Assembly (NCBI RefSeq): GCF_003012815.1
Contig: NZ_PXYJ01000001.1
Coordinates: 496,001-560,000, forward strand
Reading direction: 5' to 3'
From: Allosphingosinicella vermicomposti
Lineage (GTDB): Bacteria; Pseudomonadota; Alphaproteobacteria; Sphingomonadales; Sphingomonadaceae
Length of the DNA stretch: 64,000 nt
The notes below the pieces were generated by a model that was not told where the DNA came from, ran no database searches, and saw nothing but the letters and a program-made list of their open reading frames with translations. Of the stretch, positions 57,955-61,538 are shown in pieces. A program made the position numbers and the translations under genes. Numbering within the stretch: the first letter of the stretch is position 1; each line of letters opens with the position of its first letter.

Positions 57955-58881
57955 TCAAACAGGCTTCGTGTTCAGCCAATTACGCCCACTTTCCAGCATC
58001 TTAATCCGCTTGGCGGCCATCGGCGCGACATATGCATTGCCACCCCGGGCCGCCGCTTCAAAAACCGCCAACCGTGCATCGATATCGCCTGCCGCTGAAG
58101 CCTGAGCGGAAACAGCCATCATCTGCACCCGCGCGCTTGGATGAAACCGCGCATAATGATCCAACAGTTCCTTGCCCTTGTCGCCGCCAAAATGCGCCGA
58201 GAGAGCGAGAAGCGGTTCGATCGTCAGCGTATTGACGATTTTCGATACCGCCCCGCTGTCCAAGTCGAAGCGATATTGATCGCGGTAATGCACGCCCGGA
58301 TTGGCTTCGAGGATGTTTATGGACATCGACATCGCATCGGCAGGAAGCTGGCGGTGCACATCCTTGTGCGCGCGATAGAGCATCACCTTACCCTGATCGA
58401 GGCGTGCTTTCTCGATAAATTTCAACTCAACCTTTTCGCCATCGTAACCGGCGGCGGACTCATAGTCGAATTCGTAATAGTCGCTCCAATATCCCGGACC
58501 GAGATAGCCTACTGTCAGGAATGAGAAATTGTGATCGTGGGCAACGTCGTAGAGAAAGGGCGCTGTGCCGCTATGCTTGATCACGCTATCGGTCAGCGCG
58601 GGCCAGAAATTCGCCCGCACGATAAATTCCGAGTCCCGATGCAGGATGATAACCTGACTGCTATATTCGTTGTTAGTCACCTGACCGTCGCAACGATCCT
58701 TAAGCTCCCCAACGACGAGATCGGTCAGGAATGTCCGGTTGTTAGCCAGCTTCTTCAGCAGCGGCCCCCAAGATGAAAAATTGTCCTCATCCCGTGGATC
58801 GAAGCGGCCGCCCTTGAGCGCGTCGACCAGATCGCCGAGCTCAATCTTCTCTTCTGAATCGGCATGGATCACGCGGGGCAT
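57955..58881 (-). CDS. Cupin/cysteine-dioxygenase-like protein, function unknown
   Basis: The 308-residue soluble protein starts MPRVIHADSEEKIELGD. A cupin-like core (about 75-195) includes VAHDHNFSFLTVGYLGPGYW with a His-x-His pair (115, 117) and a second His cluster YRAHKDVHRQLP (172, 176), consistent with a mononuclear metal site. A helical C-terminal part (about 215-305) looks like HEAT-type repeats (ARVQMMAVSAQASAAGD). I recall relatives in sphingomonads carrying a misleading transposase label; nothing here resembles a transposase. The ATG overlaps the stop of the HEAT-like gene (ATGA), so the two are translationally coupled. A peptide-modifying oxygenase is one possibility. Confidence 0.65.
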   Translation of the reverse strand: MPRVIHADSEEKIELGDLVDALKGGRFDPRDEDNFSSWGPLLKKLANNRTFLTDLVVGELKDRCDGQVTNNEYSSQVIILHRDSEFIVRANFWPALTDSVIKHSGTAPFLYDVAHDHNFSFLTVGYLGPGYWSDYYEFDYESAAGYDGEKVELKFIEKARLDQGKVMLYRAHKDVHRQLPADAMSMSINILEANPGVHYRDQYRFDLDSGAVSKIVNTLTIEPLLALSAHFGGDKGKELLDHYARFHPSARVQMMAVSAQASAAGDIDARLAVFEAAARGGNAYVAPMAAKRIKMLESGRNWLNTKPV

Positions 58882-59855
58882 CAGGCAATTCCCCTATCGC
58901 CATCGGGGAAAAAGGTTTCGAGCGTTTGGCGTGCTGCGTCGCGCACTTCTTCATGCGGATCTTCCAGCGCCAATCGGCGGAGATGCGGCAGCGCGGCTTC
59001 GGCGTTCAAAGCCAGGAACTCGCGCATTAAATGCCACCGGGTGAAAAAGGGCTGATTGGTCAGGAATTGCTCGATGAGGGGAACTGCATCGTCCCGGCCC
59101 ATCAAACGGAGCAAGGTCACCATCATCTGAACGCGTGAACTGACTTCGTCCGTCGCGGTCGCGCCCGCAAGGGCTCCGGTTTCCACATCATATTCGACGG
59201 CCAGCGGCGCACTGTCGATTTTGATCTGCGCTTGAAGCTGTACGATATCGGAAGACGCGTGTTCAATGATGAAGCTTTCCCGGCGACCATCTATCATCCA
59301 GACTTCGCCATCGCTCATTTGCCGCCTGCCGGTCATGCGCGGGCCCGCGGCTGTCCCAGCCGAAAAATCCGACCCAGCCTCCGGCGCTTCCCATAAAGAC
59401 AACAGGGCATTGCCCGATTTGAGGTAACGGTAGACAGTGACAATGCCCGGAAAACCAATCGTTCCCTTACCGCGATTGGCGACCTTCTTCGCAGCCAGGG
59501 CATCCGCGTTGATCACGTTTAACGTGATATCCAGGGGGCTGCTCTCAAACAGCACAATGCCAGTGCTAAGGTCGGTGCGCGGCGCTGAAAAAGGTGGGCT
59601 GAAGAATGGGTCGCCAGCAGCCTCCGCAATCAGATCATCGACCAGGGCCGTGATATCGGCATCCCGCTCCAGAAAGGCATGCGCAACGGCGAGCACAGCC
59701 TCAAACGACCCATTTGCCGCCGCGAGTTGCCGCTCCGTGTCCGTGTAAAGCGGATGCTGAATCCAGCGATTGGAAAAGGCGACAACGCGTTCATGAGTGG
59801 CGGCTTGACGCGCAGGATCGCTCAGCCATTCGTGCAATAGGCTCGTCGTGAACAT
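58881..59855 (-). CDS. HEAT-like repeat protein, function unknown
   Basis: The 324-residue soluble protein has an N-terminal helical domain (HEWLSDPARQAATHERVVAF), a middle beta-rich domain (about 105-225: GIVLFESSPLDITLNVINAD, GTIGFPGIVTVYRYL, MTGRRQMSDGEVWMIDGR), and C-terminal helical repeats (LPHLRRLALEDPHEEVRDAA). The beta domain may itself be cupin-like, which would make it a distant relative of the next gene. ATG 59855 has only a weak ribosome binding site. It lies 110 bp after the small peptide gene, separated by a strong stem-loop. No catalytic residues are certain. Confidence 0.65.
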   Translation of the reverse strand: MFTTSLLHEWLSDPARQAATHERVVAFSNRWIQHPLYTDTERQLAAANGSFEAVLAVAHAFLERDADITALVDDLIAEAAGDPFFSPPFSAPRTDLSTGIVLFESSPLDITLNVINADALAAKKVANRGKGTIGFPGIVTVYRYLKSGNALLSLWEAPEAGSDFSAGTAAGPRMTGRRQMSDGEVWMIDGRRESFIIEHASSDIVQLQAQIKIDSAPLAVEYDVETGALAGATATDEVSSRVQMMVTLLRLMGRDDAVPLIEQFLTNQPFFTRWHLMREFLALNAEAALPHLRRLALEDPHEEVRDAARQTLETFFPDGDRGIA

Positions 59856-59927
59856 AACATTATCTTAGCATAGCCAGCAGGCAGCTACAGGGGGTCGTCC
59901 AAGGGTTGGGGCGGGGACGATCATGCT

Positions 59928-59954
59928 GAGGGCGGCTCGTGGGGTGCCGCCCTC
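59928..59954 (-). terminator. Stem-loop between the peptide gene and the enzyme genes
   Basis: GAGGGCGGC (59928-59936) and GCCGCCCTC (59946-59954) form a perfect 9-bp GC-rich stem with a 9-nt loop. It begins 11 bp after the peptide stop codon. There is no T-run, so it is more likely an mRNA-processing or partial-termination element that would give more peptide mRNA than enzyme mRNA. Confidence 0.6.
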
Positions 59955-59965
59955 GCACGCACGAA

Positions 59966-60121
59966 TTACTTACCCTGCAAGTGCTGGCCGACGAGATATA
60001 CGCCAGCTGCGGCAATGATGCCTGCGCAGAACGGGCCAGCGACTTCGCGCTGCTTCGCCGAACCCTGGATTCCAACGCTGGTCTTGATTTCCGGCACGGA
60101 TGCGATGTCGATCTTGGTCAT
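59966..60121 (-). CDS. 51-residue peptide, candidate precursor (RiPP-like)
   Basis: A short frame starts at ATG 60121 after GAGGGAAATCAA. The product begins MTKIDIASVPEIKTSVGIQG, continues SAKQREVAGPFCAG and ends IIAAAGVYLVGQHLQGK. The first about 28 residues are charged and leader-like. The last about 22 are hydrophobic with a single Cys. Such a two-part layout, a strong ribosome binding site, a stem-loop directly after the gene and two uncharacterised putative enzymes downstream are all typical of a modified-peptide precursor. Alternatively it is a small membrane peptide (the IIAAAGVYLVG stretch could insert). No homologue is recalled. Confidence 0.6.
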   Translation of the reverse strand: MTKIDIASVPEIKTSVGIQGSAKQREVAGPFCAGIIAAAGVYLVGQHLQGK

Positions 60122-60399
60122 TTGATTTCCCTCGTAACTTCAGTGCTACTTCGGGGGTCGCGATGGTCTCGGCTTGGCCAAAAGCCGTCAACCGACTTGC
60201 ATTCTGTTTTCGCCTCATGGCGAGAGCTGAACACCGTCCGGACAGGTAGATTCTCTCTTCCCCCAAAGCGCTTAGTCCCGGCGAAATTAAAAACCTGTCG
60301 CTATGGTAAAAAAAAATTTTACCAAGAATGGAAATGGTTCAGTTTTCAGAGGAAATTAGCATGTCGGGATGGGTCAATCGGGGGTGAAAACGGCAAAGC
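60122..60399. other. AT-rich intergenic region with an 8-bp inverted repeat
   Basis: TGGTAAAA (60302-60309), five A, and TTTTACCA (60315-60322) form a perfect inverted repeat in the leader between the membrane-protein gene and the peptide gene. On the minus strand GGTTGACGG (about 60195) is a possible -35 for the peptide gene, but no clear -10 follows. It could also be the 3' end of the sigma-factor transcript. Confidence 0.5.
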
Positions 60400-61032
60400 T
60401 CAGCTCTGCGGTTCGGCAAGTTCATCAAGTCGCGCCTCTCGCAGATATTGCTCCTGTCGCTCTCTTAGATGATCGAGTTCGCGCTGGATGTCGCGATGAG
60501 CCTTCAGGAAGAAGGCGAACAGGCCACCCAGAACAAATATGGTCGCGATGCCAGGGCGTGTTAGCGGCGAGGCGTGGAGGAGAAGGACGTTGAGAATATC
60601 GTCCAGATTGCGCTTCTCCATGGCATGGAGGGTCATGATTCCCAGAACATATCCGGGGACAATCAGCCACAAGCCGAAGCGCGACCGCCGCAAGCGAAGG
60701 TCGGCGCTCCTGATCGCATTATCGAGCAGGGTTGAACGATCGCTCGTGTCGACCAAGAGTGCAATTTTCGTCAGCGTGTAGCGGCGCCAGGACGACCAGA
60801 TCAGGACGACGATCAGCAAAGTCACGGTAAACAGAACCGCCGGTGCCGGCGTCAGGATAAGCCCGGCGGCAAGGGCGAGCATCACGATAACCCCGCCGCC
60901 AATTTCCAGCTGTTGCATAAGCCGGGCGCGCCGGCTCGTGCGCCGGGCAAGCGCCTCCAGCGCCGCCTGCTCCTCAGGCGACGGCTCATCTCGCCACAGA
61001 GCGGCGAAATCGTCGAATTCCTCCCCCGTCAC
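60400..61032 (-). CDS. Membrane protein coupled to an ECF sigma factor (candidate anti-sigma)
   Basis: The 210-residue protein has a soluble N-terminus (about 1-42: EEFDDFAALWRDEPSPEEQ) and two closely spaced helices (about 45-82). A middle region (TSDRSTLLDNAIRSADLRLRR) is followed by two more helices (about 122-140 and 163-178) and a coiled-coil tail (REARLDELAEPQ). No zinc-binding anti-sigma motif is seen. Its GTG start overlaps the sigma gene stop (GTGA), and this coupling plus topology is the evidence for an anti-sigma role. Confidence 0.65.
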   Translation of the reverse strand: MTGEEFDDFAALWRDEPSPEEQAALEALARRTSRRARLMQQLEIGGGVIVMLALAAGLILTPAPAVLFTVTLLIVVLIWSSWRRYTLTKIALLVDTSDRSTLLDNAIRSADLRLRRSRFGLWLIVPGYVLGIMTLHAMEKRNLDDILNVLLLHASPLTRPGIATIFVLGGLFAFFLKAHRDIQRELDHLRERQEQYLREARLDELAEPQS

Positions 61033-61538
61033 GACCTTTTCCCTATAATGGCTTTAAGCGTCGTTTTAGCCCGCTGGCAGCGAAGCATCGCGGCATTGGC
61101 CGTGATGCCCAGCATGTCCGCCATTTCACCGTAACTGAACCCCTCCAGGGACAATACTATGGCTTCCCTCTGTGGAAGTGGCAATTGCTGGATCGATTCC
61201 ACAAGGTGCTTCTTCATGTCGTTTTCGAGAGCGATTTCGTCCGGTGCGGGGTTCCGCGCCACGAGATCGTCGGGAAGGTCCACATGCCTTGGCTCCCTGG
61301 CCCTCTTTGTCACGTGGGAAATGGACCGTTTCTGAGCAATGCTCGCAACAAAGGCCTTCAACGTGGATTCTTCCCGGAATGAGGGTAGAGCCAGCCAGAT
61401 GGCGAGCATGATGTCCTGAATAAGTTCGCGGCGCAGGGCATGGTCAGCCTCGTAAGACAGCGCGATGCGAGAGATGAGGCCGGAGCAGGTCTTGGAAACG
61501 TCCTTGAACAAAAGTTCTGTGGACTTCGCTTCGCTCAT
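61029..61538 (-). CDS. ECF-type sigma-70 family sigma factor
   Basis: The 169-residue protein has region 2 (RRELIQDIMLAIWLALPSFREESTLKAFVASIAQKR; the part LIQDIMLAIWLALPSF is diagnostic) and region 4 (LPLPQREAIVLSLEGFSYGEMADMLGITANAAMLRCQRAKTTL, with a helix-turn-helix in its second half). ATG 61538 is preferred within a longer open frame. It overlaps the membrane-protein gene and is upstream of the peptide genes on the same strand, so it may control them. It is divergent from the phosphotransferase gene. Confidence 0.88.
   Translation of the reverse strand: MSEAKSTELLFKDVSKTCSGLISRIALSYEADHALRRELIQDIMLAIWLALPSFREESTLKAFVASIAQKRSISHVTKRAREPRHVDLPDDLVARNPAPDEIALENDMKKHLVESIQQLPLPQREAIVLSLEGFSYGEMADMLGITANAAMLRCQRAKTTLKAIIGKRS

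Follow-up and report, generated by a model that had tools for sequence, protein, structure and literature searches.

A conserved peptide, HEAT-like and cupin-like gene unit in Sphingomonadaceae: a candidate ribosomal peptide maturation cassette

We have analysed a 64,000-nt stretch of the Allosphingosinicella vermicomposti genome (assembly GCF_003012815.1, contig NZ_PXYJ01000001.1, positions 496,001 to 560,000), termed the window in its full length, in which a gene for a 51-aa peptide precedes genes for a HEAT-like and a cupin-like protein. All five minus-strand genes reported for this locus in an initial annotation made from the sequence are present, at the positions given and in the same order. 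Read along the minus strand, an extracytoplasmic function (ECF) sigma factor of 169 aa (61029..61538) is followed by a 210-aa membrane protein (60400..61032), the peptide (59966..60121), the 324-aa HEAT-like protein (58881..59855) and the 308-aa cupin-like protein (57955..58881). A candidate ECF promoter on the same strand, CGACAGGTT-N14-GACT (60274..60300), recovered by motif scan, lies 179 nt upstream of the peptide start, and the gap separating the peptide and HEAT-like genes (59856..59965) contains a GC-rich hairpin, GAGGGCGGC...GCCGCCCTC. The proposed GTGA overlap of the sigma factor and membrane protein genes is correct, whereas a single base (TGATG), and not ATGA, is shared by the HEAT-like and cupin-like genes. 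Among the five proteins, Pfam families scored above curated cut-offs are sigma factor regions 2 and 4 (Sigma70_r2 and Sigma70_r4_2) and HEAT repeats, and the sigma factor also exceeds the cut-off of the NCBIfam ECF superfamily model TIGR02937. No Pfam family exceeds these cut-offs in the cupin-like, peptide or membrane proteins, nor is any recognised anti-sigma domain of Pfam or NCBIfam detected above cut-off in the membrane protein, in which hydrophobic segments are visible by eye; its pairing with the sigma factor gene makes it a candidate anti-sigma factor or sensor.

The peptide, matched in the window by a family profile at E 1.1e-14, has a length of approximately 50 residues in its family, with a conserved leader-like portion resembling IDxxxLPELxTxVGxxGS followed by a hydrophobic tail. 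Conservation was evaluated in 120 non-redundant loci, consisting of 60 fetched loci, the window and the best 80 of 375 relatives after removal of 21 redundant entries, all 120 of which contain a HEAT-family match by profile search. A first peptide profile, built from 17 seeds that all derive from loci inside the tested set, matches in 112 of the 120 loci, always just upstream of the HEAT gene, and the same arrangement is observed in 95 of 103 loci when the seed loci are set aside. Contig ends truncate three of the eight loci missed (L056, L155 and L178), and two others (L085 and L104) contain weak candidates. A second profile, constructed from 26 peptides, detects the peptide in 109 of the 120 loci at E<=1e-3. 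In a search of all 8135 open reading frames (ORFs) of 60 loci, 17 of which had supplied profile seeds, 57 matched at E<=1, three of them weakly (E 0.07-0.92), and each of the 57 is positioned just upstream of a HEAT gene, a placement far beyond what chance would give. Thus, a small conserved frame is not consistently missing upstream of HEAT and cupin homologues.

Codon comparison indicates that this frame is under purifying selection, a check that the initial annotation had called for. The pooled ratio of non-synonymous to synonymous differences (pN/pS) is 0.34 over 34 independent pairs, compared with 1.26 when the frame is shifted by one base. The leader-like portion gives 0.26 and the tail 0.42 (33 pairs), a modest difference. 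Column frequencies in 114 peptides, with start codons picked by rule, reveal Leu in 95% at column 14, Gly in 96% at column 22 and Thr in 77% at column 16. The most hydrophobic 12-residue stretch falls within the C-terminal half in 113 of the 114 peptides, while the tail sequence itself differs strongly between clades. The suggestion of a real peptide gene in the middle of the locus is therefore borne out by its conservation and codon selection, as is that of a hydrophobic C-terminus. The Cys noted in this C-terminus is not general, any Cys being found in 36 of the 114 peptides, a frequency that rules out Cys dioxygenation as the general reaction.

The two proteins encoded downstream are related to each other. 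AlphaFold2 models of both have a mean predicted local distance difference test score of 94.7 and combine a cysteine dioxygenase (CDO)-type cupin with a helical-repeat end. The best Foldseek match of the cupin-like model is 4tlf (chain D; E 3.2e-8, probability 1.00, template modelling (TM) score 0.59 by target), in agreement with the CDO-type cupin fold previously guessed for this protein, and that of the HEAT-like model is 8vni (E 2.6e-6). The corresponding TM-scores by query reach only 0.40 and 0.34, respectively, as would be expected if the match were confined to the cupin part. Profile alignment of the HEAT-like protein with the cupin family by hhalign extends over 257 columns (probability 96, E 3.9e-9, 13% identity), the greater part of both families. 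By sequence and model, the HEAT-like protein is a degenerate cupin-HEAT paralogue of the cupin-like protein, which corrects its initial description; its membership of a conserved unit with the peptide and cupin-like genes is supported.

The paralogues differ in their histidine pattern. All 53 cupin-family members compared have H115 and H117, and 52 of the 53 have H176; in a more diverse set (n=16) H115, H117, H176, R89, Q178, S185, S187 are invariant. His172 is conserved in 45 of 53 and replaced in several of the 16 diverse members, which disfavours it as a metal ligand. Of the four histidines originally listed, His115, His117 and His176 thus remain and likely constitute the putative metal triad. 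A near-invariant Arg upstream of the HxH pattern (51 of 53 members), Arg 89 in the cupin-like protein, precedes H115 by 26 residues, a spacing equal to that of Arg60 and His86 in rat CDO. The HEAT-like protein of the window has V141, R143 and F195 at the aligned columns, and in its family His is found at these three columns in 9, 6 and 2 of 49 members, conserved at none. This difference suggests that the cupin-like partner probably holds a metal site and that the HEAT-like partner mostly does not.

The unit is common in Sphingomonadaceae. A cupin-like gene was detected in 15 of 26 genomes of the window's genus and in 103 of 298 genomes of the family, distributed over 45 of 96 genera; the peptide was found in 99 of 298 family genomes by a whole-genome search with a 26-row alignment, the two 298-genome samples being treated as the same set, as handles and counts agree in the rows compared. 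Cupin and peptide genes occur together in 95 genomes, cupin alone in eight, peptide alone in four and neither in 191. Of 101 whole-genome peptide matches, 95 have a cupin gene within 3 kb. The other six comprise a locus split into parts ~40 kb apart (G185), remnant units in G253 and G313 and further matches in G246, G043 and G138, the latter two weak. The split and remnant cases suggest that decay affects the entire locus. Outside the family the cupin-like protein is rare: six of 385 genomes match in a sample of the window's class, four of which belong to the family itself while one of the remaining pair matches only weakly, and ten of 299 in a phylum sample, one of which (G804) lies outside the family. 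The order and class of G804 yielded two matches in 197 and two in 369 genomes, respectively, G804 being counted in both.

Some members of the genus (G018, G022 and others; loci L061-L065 and partners) possess two units. The second group of units comes with a separate ECF homologue and a promoter-like motif unlike that of the first, a pattern resembling distinct ECF circuits. Tandem duplication of the unit, defined by a second HEAT and cupin match by profile, is observed in six loci; the profile also recovers a second peptide in L114 and L115, and inspection by eye one in L078, L113 and L125. A phage or viral origin was rejected, as no match exists in the phage collection and no relative is encoded at any of seven pattern matches in viral contigs. 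Broad plasmid mobility was also rejected, with two matches among 72,556 plasmid records, a set that may omit records close to the window's genome. On a Vibrio plasmid (L201, 7177-8745), a HEAT/cupin-like pair that is shorter and very divergent has a small ORF on its downstream side and lies beside restriction-modification genes. In the divergent cupin-like loci L066 and L204, a JmjC/cupin-8-like gene is seen nearby by eye and no peptide is recognisable.

The regulators linked to the unit differ between clades. An ECF sigma factor homologue is linked in 20 of the 120 loci, and within one locus set the membrane-protein homologue is present in all 15 loci with a sigma homologue. The motif CGACAGRTT-N14-GACT occurs exactly upstream of the peptide in eight of the 20 ECF-linked loci and in none of 92 other peptide loci. 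A second, TTAGCRAARTRTMAA-like motif is present in six further ECF-linked loci and again in none of the 92 others; the remaining six ECF-linked loci have neither exactly, and near matches (<=2 mismatches) are detected in four loci lacking a linked ECF gene (L048, L052, L053 and L055). As both motifs were derived from the same loci in which they were counted, independent support is provided by a whole-genome scan, in which the window's genome contains two exact sites and no site of the reversed control. One of these (556274-556300 of the contig) is the candidate promoter upstream of the peptide gene, at a distance of 179 nt; the second (L246, G000:C2:303547) precedes the gene for a 303-aa winged-helix protein. 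In a second genome, the additional site (L241, G007:C14:115937) precedes a homologue of this winged-helix protein (47% identity over 302 columns), which suggests a two-target ECF regulon. Five of nine scanned genomes have no exact site, and extra sites in G002 and G012 lack an evident target. The common promoter motif thus supports ECF control of the locus in the window's clade, as had been proposed for the sigma factor and membrane protein pair. ECF autoregulation was rejected: a dyad count over 20 loci gave no strong motif common to the regions upstream of the sigma and peptide genes, and none was seen by eye in the window. In other clades, an OmpR-type winged-helix protein is encoded downstream of the cupin (Pfam on one representative; here and below, neighbour counts come from a simple gene caller that made antisense errors and are rough).

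A second potential level of control lies in the interval separating the peptide and HEAT genes. This gap is short in most loci, with a median of 16 nt over 53 loci. The anticipated hairpin behind the peptide gene is strong in the window (folding z -4.06 against dinucleotide shuffles), and 14 of 22 loci with a gap of at least 30 nt fold at z < -2 against mononucleotide shuffles, as do six of eight gap hairpins against dinucleotide shuffles.

In the window, the unit is flanked on one side by genes for DAHP synthase, UDP-GlcNAc 2-epimerase and a cell-wall hydrolase and on the other by an APH-family kinase gene. That no transporter or protease gene adjoins the locus is accordingly correct for these four flanking genes but not for a sister clade, in which ABC/HlyD/MacB exporters adjoin it. 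Ten exporter proteins were used as queries within ~7 kb of each unit, some locus flanks being shorter, and same-strand homologues were found in ten of the 120 loci. In three (L059, L060 and L069) they are apparently unrelated, judging by distance. In seven (L078, L113, L114, L115, L125, L169 and the Tahibacter locus L165) they stand directly behind the unit, and in six of these seven behind a second, tandem unit. The cupin gene is overlapped by 4 nt by an ABC exporter gene in L113 and by an HlyD gene in L078, as assigned by Pfam. In a quick tree that has several long branches and lacks the second cupin of L114, one side of a branch is made up of the exporter-linked cupins (seven rows, Shimodaira-Hasegawa-like approximate likelihood ratio test 92-93). 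On an Alteromonas stellipolaris plasmid (L200), genes for HlyD, an ABC ATPase and a MacB/FtsX permease precede two small ORFs, peptide candidates by eye, which are followed by HEAT-like, cupin-like, ABC ATPase and ABC-2 permease genes. In L139, two adjacent hotdog (4HBT) thioesterase genes are located upstream of and divergent from the peptide gene, on the opposite strand; such a thioesterase cluster was called in 62 of the 120 loci, functional linkage and common ancestry not being separated.

Combined, these results lead us to regard it as probable, on balance, that the peptide gene and its HEAT-like and cupin-like neighbours constitute a peptide-maturation cassette of the type producing ribosomally synthesised and post-translationally modified peptides (RiPPs). 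The gene order, codon selection, paired paralogues, regulation and exporters of relatives are better explained by such a cassette than by chance proximity or by a sensor complex. In the mechanism we propose, the conserved N-terminal half of the peptide would act as a leader bound by a complex of the two related cupin-HEAT proteins, one subunit having the three-histidine metal site and the other lacking it. The metal-bearing subunit would oxidise a residue in the hydrophobic C-terminal part, with the inactive twin serving as leader-binding or scaffold subunit, and the leader would be removed later. The operon would be switched on by the linked ECF sigma factor in the clade of the window, and the hairpin behind the peptide gene may result in more peptide message than enzyme message. 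Export of the product would involve dedicated ABC/HlyD systems in one clade and unlinked systems elsewhere.

Several observations weigh against this interpretation. Neither a transporter nor a peptide protease is encoded by the four flanking genes of the window examined, and exporter homologues stand directly behind the unit in seven of the 120 loci only. Chromosomal neighbours recur in many loci, unlike those of a typical mobile bacteriocin cluster, and the divergent cupin loci L066, L105 and L106 yield no peptide match with the first profile. No tail residue is universal in the 114 peptides, so that the target of modification is not evident. The separation of the two paralogues is incomplete, in that nine of 49 HEAT-like proteins have His at one aligned column and two of 49 have HxH in the region. 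No CDO family was matched by the cupin-like protein at E<=5 in Pfam or NCBIfam, and among PDB sequences a designed protein alone matches it at E<=10. CDO catalysis is assisted by a Ser-His-Tyr triad; the corresponding stretch of the cupin-like protein seems to be S185-x-S187-x-N189, and the protein may thus be no thiol dioxygenase.

Of the alternatives, that which survives best, though we consider it unlikely, is an unmodified small membrane-active or regulatory peptide that binds the cupin-HEAT heterodimer as a sensor of oxygen, a metal or a metabolite. Purifying selection on both halves of the peptide, the hydrophobic stretch in its C-terminal half (113/114), the lack of a modifiable residue common to all tails and the linked regulators, ECF in one clade and OmpR-type winged-helix proteins downstream in others, would all be compatible with sensing. 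Such a sensor does not account for the direct linkage to ABC/HlyD/MacB-type exporters and the ABC-2 pair in Alteromonas, or for the conservation of the metal-site histidines in only one of the two paralogues. A peptide serving as scaffold or co-substrate for a small molecule or cofactor, as in the pyrroloquinoline quinone and 3-thiaglutamate systems, would make the unit a vertically kept chromosomal function, consistent with its recurring chromosomal neighbours and its occurrence in about a third of family genomes. We judge this very improbable, as no further biosynthetic gene accompanies the unit in all contexts according to the rough gene calls and the strong divergence of the tail between clades would be needless in a scaffold. 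The lowest probability is assigned to an exported hydrophobic pheromone or bacteriocin for which the cupin pair provides immunity or secretion and not modification, since the hydrophobic tails, exporter linkage and Alteromonas ABC-2 pair that favour it are offset by the lack, in most of the 120 loci, of any homologue of the ten exporter queries near the unit, and no immunity module that contains a three-His site of the CDO type is known to us. An anti-phage defence system was also rejected, none of the five proteins having a PADLOC match at E<=0.1.

The maturation cassette could have a more specific form, for which we consider the chances about evenly balanced. It would represent a new ribosomal peptide class matured by two CDO-type cupin-HEAT proteins, one active and one catalytically dead, whose heterodimer oxidises non-cysteine residues of a hydrophobic core. 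Such a class would be widespread across Sphingomonadaceae and under ECF control in one clade; in another, which extends to Gammaproteobacteria and to a plasmid, it would be linked to exporters and possibly resemble bacteriocins. No prior description of a peptide/cupin-HEAT system was found in the open-licence literature, as judged from the titles and abstract openings listed. If the cassette reading is correct, peptide biosynthesis would gain a new precursor family, present in about a third of sampled Sphingomonadaceae genomes, and a peptide-modifying enzyme of CDO type that brings its own pseudoenzyme as partner. The unit consists of three small genes and is hence directly testable in Escherichia coli.

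Comparison with known systems reveals partial resemblances. The bufferin operons of Proteobacteria, which encode multinuclear non-heme iron-dependent oxidases (MNIO, DUF692), are ECF-linked and similarly combine an ECF sigma factor, a membrane protein, a small peptide and an enzyme with a partner protein, but no DUF692 signature was detected by Pfam in any of the five window proteins. With CDO and thiol dioxygenases (PDB 4tlf and 8vni), the two proteins share their best Foldseek matches and the cupin-like protein the HxH...H pattern and upstream Arg; they differ in the extra helical repeats, the lack of a Pfam CDO match and the inactive-looking paralogue partner, and the Ser-His-Tyr pattern of CDO is not kept in the cupin-like protein. 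As in RiPP pathways generally, a short gene-encoded peptide with a leader-like part is accompanied by co-operonic enzyme-like genes and, in one clade, by exporters, whereas the maturase would be a CDO-type cupin-HEAT pair and no known RiPP maturase family is recognised in the unit. The closest parallel for the chemistry comes from biphenomycin-type RiPPs, in which PbsQ and BpmG are described as cupin-like, JmjC-related hydroxylases and PbsQ acts on an Orn residue (PMC12257519). This provides a precedent for cupin-type peptide oxidation, as both cases involve cupin-fold oxidation of a residue of a ribosomal peptide, proposed in ours. The PbsQ cluster is set apart in also containing an MNIO, a B12-dependent radical S-adenosylmethionine enzyme and an arginase, and PbsQ in being JmjC-related, whereas the cupin-like protein described here is nearest to CDO-type structures.

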